In this document: positions 4,196-28,027 of the stretch, in pieces
How the letters are laid out: each line of letters begins with the position of its first letter
How positions within the stretch are numbered: the stretch's first letter is position 1
Source: a virus
Strand: one strand, 5' to 3'
Virus record (IMG/VR): IMGVR_UViG_3300042294_000385
Coordinates: 1 to 28,027 of that record
Length of the DNA: 28,027 nucleotides
Position numbers and translations under genes: made by a program
The notes under the pieces: generated by a model
The model's input: only the letters and a program-made list of their open reading frames with translations
The model's database searches: none
What the model was told of the DNA's origin: nothing

Positions 4196-7100
4196 TGGCT
4201 GATGAGAACATACTTAAAGCCTCTAAAGAATTATATGCAGCCACTATGGTTGCAAATGTGCCTAGACAGGACAGACAAAAACTAGATTCTTTTGCTGGTT
4301 TAGTAAATAAGAATAGACAATTATTAAGTTTACCTGAAGCAGATGCTAGGGCAGAGTTTCTTAAACTTGATGAAGACTTACAAAAAACTTTAAAACAATT
4401 CAATCCTAAAGCAACTTTTGCTCAAGAAGAAGATCTATCATTTTTAGGTCAAGTTAAAGAAAAAGTTTTTGAACCGGCTATTCGTAATCTTGCAGTTTAT
4501 TCAAGCAGACTAACTGAACCGTATCGTGCAATTAGAACATCTATGGTTGAAGATATTCCTTTAGCTGAAGCTTGGAAAAAAGCTTATGACGGTAATGCTT
4601 TATTTGATAAACAACGTGAAACAAAAGTTGATGCTTATTATGATGCACCTGTAGCAAAAATTGCTAAACAAATTTCTACTGGTAAAACTATTGGTGAAGT
4701 TCTTTCTACTCTTGAAACACCTGAAGAAATTGCTGCTATGCAAAAAATGCTTATGGGTGGAACAGAGGGTGAAGTATTTGCTCGCGCTATCAAAGATTAT
4801 GATACAGCAAAAATATCAATTGGCCGTGACGCATTTTATGAACTGTTCAACATTGATCCAGGTGATTTTGGTGCTAACCGTAAAGCATTCAATAGATTTT
4901 CTGGAGCATTAGATTTAGCTACACAAATTGCTTTTGATCCTATTACTTATATTCCTATCGGTGGACAAGCTTATAAAGCATCACAATTAAGTATTTTAAA
5001 AATAGCCAATGCTACAGGTGATATTGCTGATTTAAGAATTGATAAAGCCTTTAATCCTAACACCTTGTTAGGTCGTGGGGTTAACAACTTCTTTGACGAA
5101 ATAGGTCAAGATATTAAAAAAATATCTGAAGCCACTGACGCTAGAGAAAAAGCACAATTACTTGCTAACGTTAGAAACAAATTTAAAGGTGACATTGACG
5201 ACACGGGTATTCAACAACTTGTTGATAATGAAGTCTTTGATGCCAATATGGCAAAAACTTTTATTCAAGATGTAGATAACGCTACAGCTATGTTAAACGG
5301 AAGATGGTCTGGATCACAACCTATTCTTCCAACCTATGGTGTTATTAAACAATTTAAAAACAACATTAAAACTAGTGTTGCGAGCATAACAGGTTTAAAT
5401 AAAATTAAAGTTGTTGATGATATTGATTTAAACAAAACAGACATTCTTCCATTTTTAGATACACAAGTTGATTTACTTCGCTCAGGTAATGTTGAAGAAA
5501 TCACAAAAATGAAAGATGTTATTAACAAATCTCAAACAGTGTTTGGTAGATTTGCTAGATTATTTGAAATTGCACCAAGTTTAAAAAATCTTAGAACAGG
5601 TATTAAGACTCTTTCAGATGGTAGAGAAATTGATGAAGGTTTAAAATCAACTAAAGACGTTGTTGCCCTTGCCCGTACAGCAGGTTTTGCTAAACCTATT
5701 GCTAATGAAATCGGTGCTCGTTGGATTAACGCCAATCAAGCACAACGTATCAAAATACGTGATGGTCTTGTTGCCACTATGGCACATAGTATGGGTCTGT
5801 CTTTAACAGATTCAGGTCGTGCAATTCTTAATAGAACTATTAATGTTTTAAAAAATGAAACATATGCTACACCACAAAAAGCAACTAAACAATATCTTGA
5901 TTCTTTTGGCTCATACAGTTCTGCTTTAAAGGAAATCGGTGGAGATGGTTTAGAAATAGATCCATCTAAATTTGGTGGTTCAAATCCTAAAGCTGTTGCT
6001 TTGTATCAACTTTCTGATGAACTTTCAATACCACCTATTCACGAATGGTATCGTGAAGCATATAGAACTAAAAACTGGTTTGTTAAAAGTATGGGACCTA
6101 CATTTAACAATAAGGTTTCCCAAGGTCTTGTTGATGCTTGGTCATTTTTAACTCTTGTTCCACGTCTTGGTATTCGTTCAGCAATAGAAGAAGCTATGAT
6201 GTTTGGTTTCGTTGCACCTTACGCTGCAGTTAAATCATTGTTTACAGATGGGTATAAAGCTCAACGTGCATTACGCCGTATAACTAACCTTGATAAAAAA
6301 GGTGGCTATCTTGATGCCGGACAACTATCTTTACCTATGCGTGCTTGGTATAATTACACACAAAAAGGTATTAACGAAGAATTAAGAGTAGCAAGAAAAG
6401 AATTAAAAGAAGCAGCAACTAACGCTAAAACTGGTAAAGATTTTCCATCGTTGATGGCTATTGCTATGCAAGCCTCAACTAAACCATTAAGAGGTTTGTC
6501 TAAAAAAGAAAACATTAAGTATGCTGAAGATTTTTATAAATACTCTTGGGGCACAAAAGCTTGGGAAGATATATCTGTTTCAGCCTCTCAAGGTGTTCGC
6601 CTTGAAATGCTTGCAGAAAAAGGTATGGGTTCACCTGAAGCTGTAGCAAAAATTTATGGTGATGTTGCAGAGTTTAGTACAGATCTTGCTAATGCTTTAA
6701 AGGGTCAACAAGCAACTGGTCCTTTTGATGTTATCCCTGTTCATTCTCCAGCTTTTTATATTAACTGGCAAGTTGAAGCAATTAAAGGAATACAACTTAA
6801 TGGCAAGTTAGGTAAGATTGCTGTTACACATTTAGATGATCCTGATACTGCAATTAGACTTATGAAAGAATATCTTGAAGATAATCCTGACATTGTTAAA
6901 AGATTTGTTAACGCTTATGAGGGTGAATCTTTAAGTCCATTACAACTTGCTGTAAGCATTTTTGCTAAGTCTTCAGAAATTTATCGTAACGCTGATGGTG
7001 CTATTAGTGAAAAACTATTAGGTCTTGTTCGTAAAAGAGAAGTTCAAAAAGATGGAACTGTAAAAATAGTTCTTAATCCTGATATTAATATGGATGATTT

Positions 7101-8994
7101 AAAAGCTTTAAATAAACAAGATCTTCCGGCAACAGTTTTAGGTAGACAGTTTGTACCTGTTGCTAAGAATCAAGGTGGGTTTATTAAGGCTATTCAAGAA
7201 AAGGGTTATTCTTGGATGGATCGTCAAATTGCTACCCTTACGCGCGAACCTTTCTTTTATGCTAACTGGCAAAGTTATCGTAAACAACTTACTGGTGTTG
7301 AAAATAAAAAAGTTCAACAACTTATGGGTAAAGGTTATTCAGAAGAAGCAGCAAGAGAGATTGCAGCAGAATATGCTTCAAATGCTGCTAATGATTTAGC
7401 TGTTAAACGTACTCTTGACTTTGTTGATAATCCAAACATTAGAACTAATATGGCTTGGAGTTTAAGAAACTTTGCACGTTTTTATCGTGCAACAGAAGAT
7501 TTCTATCGCCGTGCTTACAGAACAGCAATAAAGAATCCACAATCTCTTATTAGACTTCGTTTAACATCTGATGGTTTAGACCACGCAGGTTTTATTCACA
7601 ATGATGAAAATGGCGACAAGTATTTTATCTTTCCTACTGATGAAATTTTAACTGCAGCTTTTGCTCCAGTAACAAAAATTTTAACTGGTAAGACTTTGCA
7701 AACACCTATGCCTTTGCAGTTTACTGGTAAGATTAAAATGCTTACCCCATCATTAGATCCACAGTCTTCTATTCCAACTTTGTCTGGTCCTTTATCTGGT
7801 TTTTCAATGTATGCTTTATACAGAATGATGCCTAATTTTATGGCACCTGTTAAGGATCGTTTACTTGGTGTAGCTCTTGGTCCTCGTTCACAGAACGCTA
7901 GATGGACAGATGTTCTTATTCCTTCCAACGTTCGCCGTGCTGTTGATGCTTTGAATCAAGACGAACGTGAATCACAGTTTGCTTCTGCTGCTCGTAAATC
8001 AATTGTATATATGGCTGCTAATGGTGAAACTTTACCATTAGATGCAACAGAAGAACAAAAATTAGAGTACCGTCAAAAAATTGAAGGTATTGCTGCTAAC
8101 ATTGTGGTAACACGTTTCTTCCTTGGTTTACTTTCTCCAGTATCACCTCAACTAGGTTTTGGTCAAGATATTCCAGAGTATCTAAAAGATGCTGGTAACG
8201 TAAACTTTAAAGCAGAATTTAATAAACTGGTTAATGAAATTGTTATGACTGGTGAACCTGATGCTTATAACATTGCTTTGCAAAAATGGGCTAAGTTAAA
8301 ACCAGGTGTATTAGCTTACACTATTGGTGAGACTGATACTAATAAAATTGCTATCATTAAGAAAACAAATGCTGCTGCTAAATGGGTACGTGAAAACAGA
8401 GACCTTATTGCTAAATACCCTGAAGGTTCAGGGTTCTTTATACCTTATGCTGGTGAGTTTAATTTTGATGATTACACTTTCTTAAAGCGTGAAGGTTATA
8501 CTGAGGCTGTACCTATTGATGATTTTCTCAAGAAGGTAACTGTTGCTGAAGATAAAAGATCGTATTACGAATTAAAGAAAACCTTTGATGAAAGATTAGA
8601 TCAAACTTTTTCACCTTCATTAAAGGCTGCTATTCGTGATGAGTGGTCTTTGACTAAAGAAGATTTCTTATCTGATAAACCTTTGCTTATTCAAGAACTT
8701 GAAACAAGACAAAGTAAACAACAAATTGTTAACGCTGTCACAGACTTGCGTTCTATGGTTGATTCAGGGGATGCACCTAAAACTGAATTGGCTCGTAAAT
8801 ATAAAGAAATGCTTGACGCTTATGATAAAGCTGATTTAATGTTAAAGATGTTAACCAGTGATACTAAGGTTCAAAGACAACAGAAAGAAGCTGTACGCCA
8901 AAATGCGTATCGCAGAATTCAAGAAATAGCACAGGGCGACCCACAGGCTGAAATGACTGTTAGGGTTCTGTTCTCAGAATTATTAGGAGTTTAA
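4195..8994 (+). CDS. Giant 1599-aa virion protein, putative internal/ejection protein
   Basis: This is the largest gene here. A TTG at 4192 is in frame, but the ATG at 4195 fits the GGTGGG ribosome site and the TGATG overlap better. The product is mostly alpha-helical and Lys/Asp-rich, with a few hydrophobic stretches: around residues 245-262 (IAFDPITYIPIGG) and around 650-685, where several conserved-looking Trp, Pro and Arg residues precede a hydrophobic run. No protease, lysozyme or other enzyme motif was found by eye. Its size, its location between portal and scaffold, and two large neighbours of similar style recall the internal/ejection protein sets of podoviruses, which leave the capsid with the DNA and form a conduit across the envelope. 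A tape-measure role is the main alternative. Its function is inferred from context only. Confidence 0.72.
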   Translation: MADENILKASKELYAATMVANVPRQDRQKLDSFAGLVNKNRQLLSLPEADARAEFLKLDEDLQKTLKQFNPKATFAQEEDLSFLGQVKEKVFEPAIRNLAVYSSRLTEPYRAIRTSMVEDIPLAEAWKKAYDGNALFDKQRETKVDAYYDAPVAKIAKQISTGKTIGEVLSTLETPEEIAAMQKMLMGGTEGEVFARAIKDYDTAKISIGRDAFYELFNIDPGDFGANRKAFNRFSGALDLATQIAFDPITYIPIGGQAYKASQLSILKIANATGDIADLRIDKAFNPNTLLGRGVNNFFDEIGQDIKKISEATDAREKAQLLANVRNKFKGDIDDTGIQQLVDNEVFDANMAKTFIQDVDNATAMLNGRWSGSQPILPTYGVIKQFKNNIKTSVASITGLNKIKVVDDIDLNKTDILPFLDTQVDLLRSGNVEEITKMKDVINKSQTVFGRFARLFEIAPSLKNLRTGIKTLSDGREIDEGLKSTKDVVALARTAGFAKPIANEIGARWINANQAQRIKIRDGLVATMAHSMGLSLTDSGRAILNRTINVLKNETYATPQKATKQYLDSFGSYSSALKEIGGDGLEIDPSKFGGSNPKAVALYQLSDELSIPPIHEWYREAYRTKNWFVKSMGPTFNNKVSQGLVDAWSFLTLVPRLGIRSAIEEAMMFGFVAPYAAVKSLFTDGYKAQRALRRITNLDKKGGYLDAGQLSLPMRAWYNYTQKGINEELRVARKELKEAATNAKTGKDFPSLMAIAMQASTKPLRGLSKKENIKYAEDFYKYSWGTKAWEDISVSASQGVRLEMLAEKGMGSPEAVAKIYGDVAEFSTDLANALKGQQATGPFDVIPVHSPAFYINWQVEAIKGIQLNGKLGKIAVTHLDDPDTAIRLMKEYLEDNPDIVKRFVNAYEGESLSPLQLAVSIFAKSSEIYRNADGAISEKLLGLVRKREVQKDGTVKIVLNPDINMDDLKALNKQDLPATVLGRQFVPVAKNQGGFIKAIQEKGYSWMDRQIATLTREPFFYANWQSYRKQLTGVENKKVQQLMGKGYSEEAAREIAAEYASNAANDLAVKRTLDFVDNPNIRTNMAWSLRNFARFYRATEDFYRRAYRTAIKNPQSLIRLRLTSDGLDHAGFIHNDENGDKYFIFPTDEILTAAFAPVTKILTGKTLQTPMPLQFTGKIKMLTPSLDPQSSIPTLSGPLSGFSMYALYRMMPNFMAPVKDRLLGVALGPRSQNARWTDVLIPSNVRRAVDALNQDERESQFASAARKSIVYMAANGETLPLDATEEQKLEYRQKIEGIAANIVVTRFFLGLLSPVSPQLGFGQDIPEYLKDAGNVNFKAEFNKLVNEIVMTGEPDAYNIALQKWAKLKPGVLAYTIGETDTNKIAIIKKTNAAAKWVRENRDLIAKYPEGSGFFIPYAGEFNFDDYTFLKREGYTEAVPIDDFLKKVTVAEDKRSYYELKKTFDERLDQTFSPSLKAAIRDEWSLTKEDFLSDKPLLIQELETRQSKQQIVNAVTDLRSMVDSGDAPKTELARKYKEMLDAYDKADLMLKMLTSDTKVQRQQKEAVRQNAYRRIQEIAQGDPQAEMTVRVLFSELLGV

Positions 8995-10578
8995 TTGGCT
9001 GACAATGAAAAGTCTTTAGCGCAAGAATATAAAGACCTTAATGTTAAAATTAATAAGTTAAAGTCTGAACTTAAAACTTTAGTTAAAGAAGACAAAAAAG
9101 TTAATGTTGACAACTCTACTAAAATTAATGCTAAACAAAAAGAACTTACTGCTCTTGAAGAGCAACGTAAAAAGAATAGAGAAAGTTCTGAAGAGAAAGC
9201 TACTGTTGGCTTAGCTGCTAGAGAAAGTAAAAAGACTCAATCTGAATTAAAAAAAGTTGATGAAGAGATTGCTTTTATTGAACGTACAGGTAATCGTCCT
9301 ACTGTTCCTGGTCAACGAGGCCCTGCTATTGCAGCAACCGATGAGTATTTAAATACTTTAAAAACTAGACGTAATGAAATTATTAACAAACCTGTTGAAG
9401 AAGAAGAAGAAGTTAAAGCTGATGCTGGTTTTGAACAACCTTTAAAAACAGTTAGCAGTGATGCTGGTGGAGGGTTGAGAAGTAAAGATTTTCTATATTC
9501 TACAGTTATTGCTGGTCTTGATGTAAGTGCTGATATTGATCCTGCTAGACAAGCTGAACGTAAAGTTTTACCTGGTAGTCAAGATGGCGTATTTACAATT
9601 AATGACCCTGCTTTTGTTGGCGGAGAATACCTATTTTTAGGTACTGCTGGTACAGCTGAAACTTTCTCTAAACCTGTAGGTTATGAACAATTTGAATATG
9701 GTTTGTACAAGATGGCCCCTGAAGAGGTTATCAGTTACAAAAAGGCTTTAGGTTATTCTAATCCTACTTCTGTAGTAGATAAAAAGTTTAAAGACGATAT
9801 GCTTCAAGCTGCCCGTACAGTTTCTGAACTTAACTATGGTAATGCTGTTGCAGGTAAACGTGTTCAAGCATCCCTTGAAGGATATTTATCTACCCCAGAA
9901 AAATATGGTTTTGCTGCCACTGGTGTTAAAGCAGGTCCTTCTGCTGAAGAAGTTAAAGTTAAAGCGGATGCTATTAGAATCTATGCTACTGATCTTGGTG
10001 TTGGTTTGGATGATGCAGCTGTTAATAAACTTGCTCGCGAGTGGGCTGCAGGTAGATTTGATACAACAACTATTAAACCACAGATTGCTCGTTCAGGTAA
10101 GATTGATTTTGCTAAAGGTGCTGCTGCTGAGCAGTTAAATACTTTGAAAGAACTTGCTGGTTCTTATGGTATGCAGTATGACCAAGGTTGGTATAACACT
10201 GCTGCTACTAATGTTTTGACTGGTAAAGATGATATTGAAACTTACAAACAATATGTTAGAGACCAAGCTAAGTCTAAGTTTCCTACACTTGTGGCACAGT
10301 TAGACCAAGGTTTTACTGTTCGTCAACTTGCTTCTCCTTATATTCAGACTATGTCTAACATTCTTGAGATTGATCCTAATACTATTGGTTTGAATGATGT
10401 TTATGTTAATCAGGCTTTGACTGGTTTAGATGCTGAGGGTAAACCTTCTACTAAACCTTTGTGGCAGTTTGAGCAAGATCTTCGTAAGGACCCTCGTTGG
10501 AATTTTACTAAGAATGCTCAGGATAGTTTGATGAATACTACTCGTAAGGTTCTTCAAGATTTTGGATTGGTATCTTAA
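8995..10578 (+). CDS. 527-aa structural/ejection-type protein with coiled-coil N-terminus
   Basis: The gene starts at TTG immediately after the preceding stop, with TAGGAG seven bases upstream; no closer ATG fits. Residues 1-75 are a charged Lys/Glu heptad-like region, a probable coiled coil, followed by a Glu-rich linker near residue 138. The C-terminal 170 residues contain the conserved-looking blocks AREWAAGRFD, DQGWYNTAATNVL, RQLASPYIQTM, PLWQFEQDLRKDPRW and a final VLQDFGL. I recall this combination from large structural proteins of actinophages, but I cannot check it. Its position between the 1599-aa and 377-aa genes suggests that the three work as one virion-internal complex. Confidence 0.7.
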   Translation: MADNEKSLAQEYKDLNVKINKLKSELKTLVKEDKKVNVDNSTKINAKQKELTALEEQRKKNRESSEEKATVGLAARESKKTQSELKKVDEEIAFIERTGNRPTVPGQRGPAIAATDEYLNTLKTRRNEIINKPVEEEEEVKADAGFEQPLKTVSSDAGGGLRSKDFLYSTVIAGLDVSADIDPARQAERKVLPGSQDGVFTINDPAFVGGEYLFLGTAGTAETFSKPVGYEQFEYGLYKMAPEEVISYKKALGYSNPTSVVDKKFKDDMLQAARTVSELNYGNAVAGKRVQASLEGYLSTPEKYGFAATGVKAGPSAEEVKVKADAIRIYATDLGVGLDDAAVNKLAREWAAGRFDTTTIKPQIARSGKIDFAKGAAAEQLNTLKELAGSYGMQYDQGWYNTAATNVLTGKDDIETYKQYVRDQAKSKFPTLVAQLDQGFTVRQLASPYIQTMSNILEIDPNTIGLNDVYVNQALTGLDAEGKPSTKPLWQFEQDLRKDPRWNFTKNAQDSLMNTTRKVLQDFGLVS

Positions 10579-24872: not shown

Positions 24873-26775
24873 GAGCATTACCGAACCGATTGTTAACCCT
24901 ATTGGGCTTGCAGGTTCCACAGCGCAACTTTACACAAACACTAGCAACATTTATGATGTTGCCATTGGTGGGCAACCTTTCCTTCTTGGAGCATCAGACA
25001 GATACCCTTACCAAAGACAAACAGCAACTTATCGTAAACAACAGTTTGATAACACTAAAGAAGTTGGTGAGCAAACTTTTGAAGGATGGTGGTTGAGAAG
25101 CCAATCATCTTTTCATCTTGGTGCTGGTATCAATTATCTTGACCCTTATCTTTCAGAGAATGTTCAGTATCGTTTTAATGATTCAGCTGGTGTTGATGTT
25201 TGGACACCTGGTCAGGTCACAATGTTGCCTGATACAGAAAATGTTTTCACTGTTTCCGATGACATTAATATGTTTGGTGCTATTGATTCATTAGACCAGG
25301 ACTGTGTGTTTGTTTCAGATGATGCTGTTCTTACACGTATTGCAGCAGATGGTACTGATGCAACTATTGCTTATGGTGGTTCAGGTTCTGATATTAAATC
25401 TCTTGCACAAGATGGTTTATATTATTATGCTGCCAATGCCACAGGTATTTATCGTGGTGATTTAACAGGTACCGGTGCAACGGGCACAAACTATTATCCA
25501 ACTAATAATACTAAAGTTGTTATATCTTATGTTAAGCAACGTATCGTTGCTGGTATTGGTGAAAAGATTTACGAAATAACACAAACACGTGGTGGCACAA
25601 ACCCTGACAGTAGTGATGCCAGGTACACACATCCTGATACTGGTTGGACTTGGTCTTCCATTGTTGAAGGACCTCAAGCAGTTTACGCTTCAGGTTATCG
25701 TGGAAACAATTCATCCATTTTCAAATTTACTTTAAGCACTGTTGGTGTTATGCCAACATTAACTAACGCTGTTACTGCAGCAGATTTTCCTGATGATGAA
25801 CACGTAACATCTCTTGGTGTTTACCTTGGAACATATATGATGATCGGTACCAATAAAGGTATTCGTGTTGGTATTATTGATGCTAACGGTGACATCAACT
25901 ATGGTCCATTAACTTACGAAAAATCTGATGCTACACACACAACGGCTTTTGCTTTTGAAGACAGGTTTGCTTACGCAACTGTAACAAATGCTATTGATGG
26001 CAAGTCTGGTTTGATTCGTATTGATTTATCTCAAGAAGTTGAACCTGGTCGTTACGCTTATGCTAAAGATTTATCTTCCGGTGTAACGGGTAATTGTCGT
26101 GCTGTTGCTTTCATTGGTGACACAGGCCGTGCAGCGTTCGCTGTTGCAGGTTCAGGTGTTTACTTTGAGAGTGCAACAAATAAAACCCCAACAGGTTTCT
26201 TGGACACAGGTTTCATTAGGTATGCAACTATTGAAAAGAAATATTTTAAGTTAATCAAACCAAGGTTTGACACACCAATGTTTGGTTCTTGTACTATTTC
26301 AACTAAAGAAATAGATGGTGATGTAACTTCCATTATCACTATCGCAGGTTCAACACCTGCGTTAAACACTGATCTTGCAACAAACATTGCACAACCACAA
26401 GAAGAATTAGCTTTTAGATTTACCTTTAACCGTTCATCAACTGATGCAACTAAAGGCCCAGTGTTTGACGGCTACCAAGTTAAATCTCTTCCTGCTGTAA
26501 CCAGGGCACGCCAATTAACTATTCCTTTAGTTAACTATGATTTTGAAACTGATCGTTACGGTGTTCAAAATGGTTACGAGGGTCGTGCTTGGGATAGGTT
26601 GCAAGCGTTAGAGAATCTTGAGGCTGCAGGTGACACTGTGGTGATTCAGGATTTTACTACTGGTGAGCAGGTTACTGGTTTGATTGAGCAGTTAAGTTTT
26701 GAAAGAACAACCCCGGCTGACCGTAGATATTCTGGTTTTGGTGGGATTATGTACGTGTCCATACGTACAGTTTAA
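24862..26775 (+). CDS. Large beta-rich tail protein, putative nozzle/hub
   Basis: The protein has 637 residues. The ATG has GAAGGGACA upstream and lies within the end of the previous gene. The N-terminus has an attachment segment (LYTNTSNIYDVAIGGQPF), then RQQFDNTKEVGEQTFEGWW-style blocks with RKQQFDNTKEVGEQTFEGWW visible. The centre consists of repeated beta strands in propeller style (DCVFVSDDAVLTRIAADGTD; KSLAQDGLYYYAANATGIYR; MMIGTNKGIRVGI). The C-terminus is a beta domain ending ERTTPADRRYSGFGGIMYVS. Beta-propeller nozzles are known in short-tailed phages, and together with the 20065 gene this would make a short tail. That reading is inferred; minor tail protein is the cautious name. Confidence 0.65.
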   Translation: MATESITEPIVNPIGLAGSTAQLYTNTSNIYDVAIGGQPFLLGASDRYPYQRQTATYRKQQFDNTKEVGEQTFEGWWLRSQSSFHLGAGINYLDPYLSENVQYRFNDSAGVDVWTPGQVTMLPDTENVFTVSDDINMFGAIDSLDQDCVFVSDDAVLTRIAADGTDATIAYGGSGSDIKSLAQDGLYYYAANATGIYRGDLTGTGATGTNYYPTNNTKVVISYVKQRIVAGIGEKIYEITQTRGGTNPDSSDARYTHPDTGWTWSSIVEGPQAVYASGYRGNNSSIFKFTLSTVGVMPTLTNAVTAADFPDDEHVTSLGVYLGTYMMIGTNKGIRVGIIDANGDINYGPLTYEKSDATHTTAFAFEDRFAYATVTNAIDGKSGLIRIDLSQEVEPGRYAYAKDLSSGVTGNCRAVAFIGDTGRAAFAVAGSGVYFESATNKTPTGFLDTGFIRYATIEKKYFKLIKPRFDTPMFGSCTISTKEIDGDVTSIITIAGSTPALNTDLATNIAQPQEELAFRFTFNRSSTDATKGPVFDGYQVKSLPAVTRARQLTIPLVNYDFETDRYGVQNGYEGRAWDRLQALENLEAAGDTVVIQDFTTGEQVTGLIEQLSFERTTPADRRYSGFGGIMYVSIRTV

Positions 26776-26776
26776 A

Positions 26777-26813
26777 GCCAATTTAAGGCACGTTTTAGCC
26801 CCTTACAGGGTGG
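26777..26813 (+). other. Element similar to the post-capsid hairpin region
   Basis: Just after the tail gene stop: GCC, a T/A-rich stretch, AGGC (26777-26793 region), then TAGCCCCT (26797-26804 region) and GGGTGG. The same order of blocks occurs after the capsid stop (13273-13316). The hairpin here is weaker because GGG pairs only with part of CCCC. It may be a degenerate terminator or an RNA-processing element. Confidence 0.4.
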
Positions 26814-26833
26814 TTTGGTGTAGGAATATACCC

Positions 26834-26859
26834 AGCCCCTTGTGAGGGGCTTTTTTTGT
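26834..26859 (+). terminator. Strong rho-independent terminator
   Basis: A perfect seven-base stem, AGCCCCT (26834-26840) and AGGGGCT (26845-26851), with a TGTG loop is followed by seven or more T residues. It closes the structural and lysis transcript after the last tail gene. It is the clearest terminator in the window. Confidence 0.9.
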
Positions 26860-26876
26860 TTTTTAAAATACTATGT

Positions 26877-26953
26877 TTATACTCGGAACCGCCTAAAGCG
26901 GTTCCTCGTTAACGGGTCGCTCGCACATACTCACCGGCTCGCTCCGAGTATAA
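26877..26953 (+). promoter_or_regulatory. Nested inverted repeats and TATAAT before the nuclease genes
   Basis: An 11-base arm TTATACTCGGA (26877-26887) is perfectly repeated inverted at TCCGAGTATAA (26943-26953). A local hairpin with arms GGAACCGC (26885-26892) and GCGGTTCC (26898-26905) shares three bases with the outer left arm, so the two pairings compete. The right arm contains TATAAT (26949-26954), a good -10 box, but no clear -35 lies 17 bases upstream. Transcription from it would start near 26961. GC-rich direct repeats (GGTCGCTCG; GGCTCGCTCC) fill the interior. This is either a promoter with overlapping operator or a structured RNA or terminator element; I favour a control region for the following operon. 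Confidence 0.5.
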
Positions 26954-26977
26954 TCGTATTGTCAAATGATTAGCAAC

Positions 26978-26998
26978 CGACACGCTTATGGCGTGTCG
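26978..26998 (+). promoter_or_regulatory. Perfect 8-base hairpin in the presumed leader
   Basis: CGACACGC and GCGTGTCG are separated by TTATG. It lies 12 bases after the ATG at 26966 and 36 bases before the ATG at 27035. If the gene starts at 27035 this is a leader hairpin, perhaps stabilising the transcript or controlling translation. Confidence 0.45.
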
Positions 26999-27034
26999 TT
27001 AAACGAATTACAAACCTGTGATATTGTGAACCTT

Positions 27035-27217
27035 ATGGAACCAATCATCGGGCACAGATCATTCTCATCCTTTACCTCCTGGATGAAATGCGGCAAAGCC
27101 TGGCAACTAGAACGCCAGCTACAAGCACCACAAATACCTGCGTGGTATTTCATCGGAGGCTCAGCCTTCCACGCGGCAGTAGAACAGTTCTTAAAAGAAC
27201 AATATGAAACCGATTGA
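27035..27217 (+). CDS. RecB/Cas4-like nuclease, N-terminal fragment as a separate gene
   Basis: The product has 60 residues from ATG 27035. An upstream in-frame ATG at 26966 would add 23 residues; it would be almost leaderless from the TATAAT box but includes the hairpin, so I prefer 27035, where the known motif begins a few residues in. The sequence GHRSFSSFTSWMKCGKAWQL and GGSAFHAAVEQF is the start of the RecB/Cas4-like PD-(D/E)XK nucleases: the first cluster cysteine (Cys19), and the motif I His46 and Glu50. The remaining nuclease motifs are missing because the frame stops here. They follow in another gene at 27412. Both ribosome sites for this gene are weak. Confidence 0.7.
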   Translation: MEPIIGHRSFSSFTSWMKCGKAWQLERQLQAPQIPAWYFIGGSAFHAAVEQFLKEQYETD

Positions 27218-27419
27218 CGAACTTGTACCTGATGAATCAAAACCAAAATTTGATTTAAGAGGAATACCAACACACGTATGCTTATGTGGTTGTAAAGTTT
27301 GGAATCTTAAAGTAATGTTTGAAGACAACGCAATCTCAATGTACTTTTTGGATATGTTTTGTTCAGCTTGTGGTAGCCCAGCTACCGCACCAACAGCAGA
27401 GGAATTAGATTGTGAGTAA
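27204..27419 (+). CDS. Small zinc-ribbon protein lying between the nuclease halves
   Basis: The protein has 71 residues. It starts 14 bases inside the end of the N-terminal nuclease fragment, with only a weak AAAAGA site, so it is probably translationally coupled. Residues 1-20 are acidic/Pro-rich. Then CLCGCKVW and, 23 residues later, CSACGSPATAPT form a typical two-knuckle zinc ribbon (Cys26/28/30 with Cys53/56), with the strand pair KVMFEDNAISMYFLDMFC between. Such ribbons often bind nucleic acid or protein. I have seen similar VC.CGC...EDNEIS.YFLDM.C..CG patterns in small actinobacterial phage proteins. It overlaps the next gene's GTG by eight bases. Confidence 0.72.
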   Translation: MKPIDELVPDESKPKFDLRGIPTHVCLCGCKVWNLKVMFEDNAISMYFLDMFCSACGSPATAPTAEELDCE

Positions 27420-28027
27420 AGATTTAGCAATCAAGTATTGGACTACCCATTTCCAAACTATGATTGATGAAAAAGCAGCAGCCACAGACACTATCCCTTC
27501 TGCTTGGCGTGCTGGCGGTCGCGCCACCAAAGCGTATCCGGAAAAAGAAAACGATATTTGGTGGCAAGACAACGGACCACAAATGGTTGACAATTTTATT
27601 CAATGGTGGAGAAATAATAAATGGTCAGTGTGGAACCACAACGGTGTTCTACAAGTTGAACCAGAATACAATGTGATGTTTGGTGACATACTTGTAAAAT
27701 CTTTTATTGATTTAGTTGCTGTCACACCTGAAGGTGACATTGCTGTTGTTGATTATAAGTCTGGTGTTTATATGCCTGACACAAATATGCAATTAGGTTT
27801 ATACGCTTGTGCTGTCCAAAGTGTAACCGGTGTTAGACCAACCAAAGGTTACTTCTATAACGCCCGACAAGGTATTATGGAAGACGCAGGGGACCTGTCT
27901 CGTTGGACAGTGCAACTATTTACGGAACTGTTTGCACAGTTTGAGAAAGGGATTCAGGCAGAAATTTTTTTGCCAAATCTTGGAATGATGTGCAAGTCTT
28001 GTTCTGTTAAAGATTACTGCCACGCTT
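27412..28027 (+). CDS. RecB/Cas4-like nuclease, C-terminal part (3' end outside window)
   Basis: Found by direct translation; the frame is open to the window edge. It starts at GTG with a very good AGAGGAA site seven bases upstream, and an in-frame TAG at 27406 shows that it is not continuous with anything upstream. It has 205 visible residues. The PD-(D/E)XK core is clear: Asp100 in SFIDLVAV, then Asp114 and Lys116 in VVDYKSG, then Gln127 in MQLGLYA. The terminal CKSC.....C (Cys194, 197, 203) supplies three ligands of a 4Fe-4S cluster; the first ligand would be Cys19 of the N-terminal fragment. It is a 5'-3' exonuclease-type fold expected in recombination or DNA processing. Codons use T/A endings. 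Confidence 0.82.
   Translation, partial: MSKDLAIKYWTTHFQTMIDEKAAATDTIPSAWRAGGRATKAYPEKENDIWWQDNGPQMVDNFIQWWRNNKWSVWNHNGVLQVEPEYNVMFGDILVKSFIDLVAVTPEGDIAVVDYKSGVYMPDTNMQLGLYACAVQSVTGVRPTKGYFYNARQGIMEDAGDLSRWTVQLFTELFAQFEKGIQAEIFLPNLGMMCKSCSVKDYCHA

Follow-up and report, generated by a model that had tools for sequence, protein, structure and literature searches.

The stretch of DNA that we analyzed (the window) is the entire IMG/VR virus record IMGVR_UViG_3300042294_000385 with a length of 28,027 bp, so its 3′ end is the end of the contig. Close to this end, on the plus strand, we found three overlapping ORFs in three different frames. The first (27035..27217, 60 aa) is the N-terminal piece (N) of a Cas4/RecB-like nuclease, recognized from the ORF list and from matches to Pfam and PHROG profiles. 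The second (27204..27419, 71 aa) encodes a zinc ribbon with the pattern CxCG ... CxxCG, and the third (27412..28027) is the C-terminal piece (C) of the nuclease, which begins with GTG and runs off the end of the record. N and the zinc ribbon overlap by 14 nt, the zinc ribbon and C by 8 nt. A sequence-only reading of this DNA had given the same three ORFs with the same coordinates and differing frames, and it had described the zinc-ribbon ORF as intact and overlapping both halves; all of this we found as described. In the window, C has 205 aa, compared to 220 aa in close relatives, and about 15 aa together with the stop codon presumably lie beyond the window end. Between the two halves remains a slot (27218..27411), which in relatives is either empty or filled with various small genes.

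The gene that precedes N is followed by an intrinsic terminator (26834..26857, plus strand) with a stem of seven pairs and a T run, so that a new transcription unit probably starts with the split nuclease. A TATTGT-like −10 box (27022..27034, plus strand; TGTGATATTGT in 27017-27034) is located 7 nt before the start codon of N and would leave only a short leader. The box is kept in most near relatives and is possibly a leaderless promoter; a sigma-70 scan did not call it. The stretch from the terminator to N is rich in palindromes (26878-26950), with GGAACCGCCTAAAGCGGTTCC and a GCTCGC...CGAGTAT repeat, and some of this is found again before N in relatives. An Rfam scan of 26700-28027 gave no match.

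For the genes that follow the nuclease we looked at the relative L010. Here, an L5 gp49-like protein, a DnaB-like helicase, a PDDEXK-like endonuclease (a weak match, below the cut-off), a methylase and parts of a primase are encoded downstream, which places the split nuclease of this phage in a replication module. A DnaB-like helicase is also found near the Cas4 exonucleases of mycobacteriophages, as it is near the L010 copy. The primase of L010, of the DnaG type, appears to be a second replication enzyme in two pieces, with a CHC2 zinc-finger part and a Toprim part in two overlapping ORFs (8879-9241 and 9096-9728). Just upstream of N and outside the slot, L010 additionally carries an HNH-like endonuclease ORF (4768-5193, minus strand), possibly a mobile element near the split gene; the window has none at this place.

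Motifs and predicted folds of the two halves

Both pieces match the same exonuclease family, PHROG_1870, N with an E-value of 1.4e-8 over profile positions 14-66 and C with 8.5e-36 over positions 77-287. Only about ten profile positions are left uncovered between them, which bears out the earlier suggestion that little is missing at the junction. N also matches PHROG_69 (1.7e-10, profile 89-140). C matches the Pfam family PDDEXK_1 (PF12705) with 7.7e-12 over profile positions 81-247, reaching 46.1 bits, where the cut-off is 22. N alone stays under this cut-off with 18.4 bits, but it aligns to the correct region of the profile (3-51). N and C are, as judged from these matches, consecutive parts of one Cas4/RecB-like PD-(D/E)XK nuclease. 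Further matches of N were to two short families, PHROG_20222 (74 aa, E 0.027) and PHROG_31737 (146 aa, E 3.4e-4), hinting that other phages may encode such N-terminal fragments separately too.

The placement of the motifs was confirmed as the sequence-only reading had it. N holds the first cysteine, Cys19 (27089-27091), and the motif-I histidine, His46 (27170-27172); its invariant residues are H7, S9, S11, C19, G20, L25, G41, G42, H46, A48 and E50. C contributes Glu83 (27658), Asp100 (27709), the D-x-K motif Asp114-x-Lys116 (27751-27759), the QxxxY motif with Gln127 and Tyr131 (27790-27804) and finally three cysteines, Cys194, Cys197 and Cys203 (27991, 28000 and 28018). The motif set of PF12705, which consists of the motif-I His, the Asp, (D/E)-x-K and QxxxY, is hence complete. 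Usually, though perhaps not of necessity, all of these motifs reside on one polypeptide, while here they are shared out over two ORFs in different frames. The putative Fe–S ligands are divided in the same way, with one N-terminal cysteine in the first piece and three C-terminal ones in the second.

The predicted structure of the intact relative L096 has a confident core (mean pLDDT 73.6) and low pLDDT in the first ~35 residues and in the C-terminal Cys region. The model matched AdnA with a Z score of 11.8 (195 residues, 4.7 Å) and the Argonaute-associated Cas4-family protein ACE1 with 10.7; Dna2 was matched too. L096 is accordingly modeled as a PDDEXK nuclease fold, and the split point falls between the motif-I helix (41-60) and the next helix (76-95). 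C by itself is also predicted to fold well (pLDDT 82.8; it matches AdnA at Z 9.7 across 174 residues), and in the light of this model N might in part be dispensable. One may go further and take N as a peptide in its own right, with a DNA-binding or regulatory role, and C as a nuclease that acts by itself, such that the halves would no longer make up one enzyme. The Asp, D-x-K, QxxxY and the three Cys of C, together with its independent fold, fit this idea. N, however, matches a contiguous N-terminal section of the exonuclease profile and has retained exactly the first Cys and the motif-I His, which the family normally carries in cis.

Occurrence, conservation and origin of the split

We scanned viral contigs with C, with its relatives and with profiles, and classified the loci by profile HMMs of both halves. 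This gave 157 distinct split N and C pairs and five intact genes, a ratio that reflects our sampling and is no census, because many more records of mycobacteriophages and Cutibacterium phages have the intact form. Nearly all split pairs are from IMG/VR contigs out of many samples, and the break is at the homologous place in every split locus that has both halves. The intact exceptions are one freshwater lineage (L096, L097 and L104 with duplicates), mycobacteriophage Pepe and Cutibacterium phages. In isolated actinophages, one ORF of ~260-315 codons encodes the homologue. For mycobacteriophage PackMan, one BLAST line suggested a split, but inspection showed the gene to be intact. The A1 profile gave no relatives when bacterial and archaeal genomes were searched with it.

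Since contigs collected with C might be a biased set, a second search was run with N only. All 80 loci obtained, which overlap largely with the contigs found earlier, were split, with no intact gene and no orphan half among them. LanE43-AprF5 (F5) and LanE43-AprE7 (E7), two lytic ‘Ca. Planktophila’ phages that have been isolated and are described in PMC10202952, carry the split as well. In the complete genome of F5, the two halves are the sole PDDEXK_1 matches. The occurrence in isolates excludes an assembly error as a general cause.

Both nuclease halves and the zinc ribbon are under purifying selection. Over 15 sampled pairs, dN of the halves was 0.02-0.24 while dS, where computable, was several-fold higher, with N and C behaving alike; for the zinc ribbon, too, dN was well below dS. 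The motifs follow this trend. The D-x-K and QxxxY patterns were found in all 152 distinct split pairs inspected for them, the N-side CG...GG..H pattern in 149 and the strict C..C.....C pattern of C in 140.

These data allow us to weigh two of the alternatives. Split coding sequences in metagenomic contigs frequently result from decay or faulty assembly. Here, 157 distinct pairs, which come from many samples, and the isolates share the identical break, the motifs are intact and dN is well below dS. A pseudogene in decay or a faulty assembly is therefore exceedingly improbable. The sequence-only reading had likewise preferred a two-gene nuclease over decay, and this view is now strongly supported by the clade-wide conservation, the selection and the isolated lytic phages. 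It would have been given up for intact relatives at this position and no other split case, which is clearly not the situation with 157 split pairs. The split looks ancient and functional rather than like a broken gene. The idea that C acts alone loses ground as well, given that N stands upstream of a C in 80 of 80 loci and that the constraint on N is about equal to that on C. We consider it unlikely, though it is the strongest of the alternatives.

In the tree, two split clades appear, one with the window and the other with F5. The intact L096 lineage and the Cutibacterium sequences are placed near the F5 clade on weakly supported branches. The AU test does not reject a single origin (p = 0.243); two origins, or one origin followed by re-fusion, would also fit. 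The gene was probably split once or twice, long ago. In most of the 31 tree representatives with an empty slot, C is read in frame +1 relative to N, and the two overlap by 8-23 nt. The simplest origin of the split in these genomes would hence be a small indel, with an internal start codon rescuing the translation of C.

The same +1 arrangement is what one would expect if a full-length chain were still made by programmed ribosomal frameshifting or another recoding event at the N stop. However, a single stop cannot bridge halves that are 168-955 nt apart with other ORFs between them (194 nt in the window, up to 955 nt in the classified set). Furthermore, both frame shifts occur among the slot-empty forms, and the codons at their N stops vary, with only one prfB-like CTT_TGA. 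C also has its own start codon, and C starts are enriched in Shine–Dalgarno sequences, since 38% have at least five matching bases compared to 9% of random positions. Recoding is for these reasons judged quite unlikely. In the window, AGAGGA is located a few bases upstream of the GTG of C (27412). The ribosome site noted earlier at this start is therefore present, and the C starts are enriched as a group, but the word “strong” was slightly overstated for an exact match of four bases.

The slot between N and C

Of all ORFs in the slot, the zinc ribbon is the most frequent. In relatives, the slot contains nothing, the zinc ribbon, the zinc ribbon with at least one other ORF, or quite different ORFs (62, 64, 60, 73, 107-109 and 218 aa). 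Besides the zinc ribbon we count about a dozen families of small ORFs, called mechanically, so that a few may be wrong frames; the family F2 resembles the zinc ribbon read in a shifted frame. The zinc-ribbon ORF of the window had no match in Pfam or PHROGs, and the slot ORFs that were tested against both gave neither a confident function nor a match to a homing endonuclease.

The spacing is mostly tight. In slot-empty genomes the N and C ORFs mostly overlap by 1-23 nt. When the slot is filled, its first ORF as a rule adjoins N or overlaps it, and nearly every last ORF shares 1-17 nt with C; the spacing is looser in a few loci. This is the pattern that one would expect of coupled translation.

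Could the zinc ribbon be an obligatory structural or DNA-binding subunit, so that the enzyme is a complex of three chains? Its frequency in the slot and the purifying selection acting on it would agree with this. But the slot is empty in the close relatives L017 and L023-L025 and holds unrelated ORFs elsewhere. The ribbon was found in 5 of 14 related records and is missing from the other nine, several of them ~40 kb long, and in F5 it is encoded ~5 kb from the split nuclease on the opposite strand. On the tree, we count at least six gains or losses of the zinc ribbon and at least seven changes between occupied and empty slots. The zinc ribbon is consequently a frequent companion and not a required part; it could serve as an optional accessory, and a three-subunit enzyme has a very small probability. 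The earlier proposal of a third subunit is hence not upheld. Of the three-gene order of the window, the N and C halves recur in relatives, while the middle gene varies or is absent.

A probable two-chain nuclease and its relation to known systems

Taking the data together, we favor with a probability of roughly 0.77 a conserved two-polypeptide Fe–S nuclease that would be expressed from one operon, with halves that fold into one enzyme and a gene-insertion slot between them. According to this model, an actinophage exonuclease of the Cas4 family (PDDEXK_1) is produced as two polypeptides, with the break placed in the loop between the motif-I helix and the helix that follows. N and then C would be translated in succession by overlapping or coupled initiation and would co-fold into a single nuclease. 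N would give the first Fe–S cysteine and the motif-I His, which would complete the active site in C, and C would give the Asp, D-x-K, QxxxY and the other three cysteines. From the motif placement we infer, soundly as we believe, that the cysteine of N and the three of C may hold one Fe–S cluster, shared by both chains, that acts as a “staple” tying them together. The assembly of N with C and the nuclease activity are likewise expected from the motifs. The junction would have turned into a tolerated insertion site, in which small phage genes, chiefly the zinc ribbon, overlap the halves tightly. The bolder version, in which the two chains form an obligate natural heterodimer stapled by the cluster and the break is an exchange site for small genes that possibly tune the enzyme, seems to us an even bet.

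Such a split enzyme with complementary catalytic and metal-binding residues could be used to test an Fe–S cluster as a clamp between subunits, and the cultured phages E7 and F5 together with the intact homologues allow the comparison. The system also bears on how phages turn a break within a conserved gene into an insertion slot. The hosts of E7 and F5 (‘Ca. Planktophila’) are abundant freshwater bacteria. Because an N piece of 60 aa below the Pfam cut-off is easily missed, the nuclease of abundant freshwater phages may appear in annotations only in truncated form.

In Cas4 itself, four cysteines surround a single cluster and the active site is of the RecB type, and Cas4 Pcal_0546 retains DNA cleavage after Cys mutation (PMC4176176), so the Fe–S cluster may be structural. 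AdnA, with its nuclease domain, and ACE1 are among the best structural matches and share the PDDEXK fold, but each has the whole domain in one chain, and AdnA is, unlike the split nuclease, fused to a helicase. The actinophage Cas4-family/RecB-like exonucleases, such as Mycobacterium phage Pepe gp66 and Propionibacterium phage PHL037M02 gp36 (PHROG_1870, PF12705), are homologous over both halves and share the motifs. They are uninterrupted ORFs, compared to two ORFs here, with ~27-35% identity to C. Proteins of pfam12705 in Mycobacterium and Propionibacterium phages are reported in PMC5704561, where a search for the words “split”, “truncated” and “frameshift” found none. In our literature search by phrases, which could miss one, no split of an actinophage Cas4-family nuclease was described.

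Genes in pieces are known from T4-like phages, namely NrdA of Aeh1 (mobE), the topoisomerase gene 60 of T4 (mobA) and the polymerase 43A/43B of phages 25 and 44RR. Split phage enzymes reassemble, and the split products of Aeh1 and phage 25 were shown to function (PMC2988022). In these cases, as in ours, a DNA-metabolism enzyme of a phage is co-encoded as separate polypeptides, whose coding regions flank another gene or a spacer. The T4-like splits, described from individual phages, contain homing endonucleases or an untranslated spacer. A homing endonuclease within or beside the break is common among genes in pieces, but not universal. The split nuclease, in contrast to the T4-like cases, is spread over a large clade, none of its tested slot ORFs is a recognized homing endonuclease, and its likely Fe–S ligands are divided between the chains. 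With a split coding region, two conserved parts and known intact relatives, it is of the known “genes in pieces” kind; what is new is the clade-wide conservation, the division of the Fe–S ligands and the variable cargo slot.
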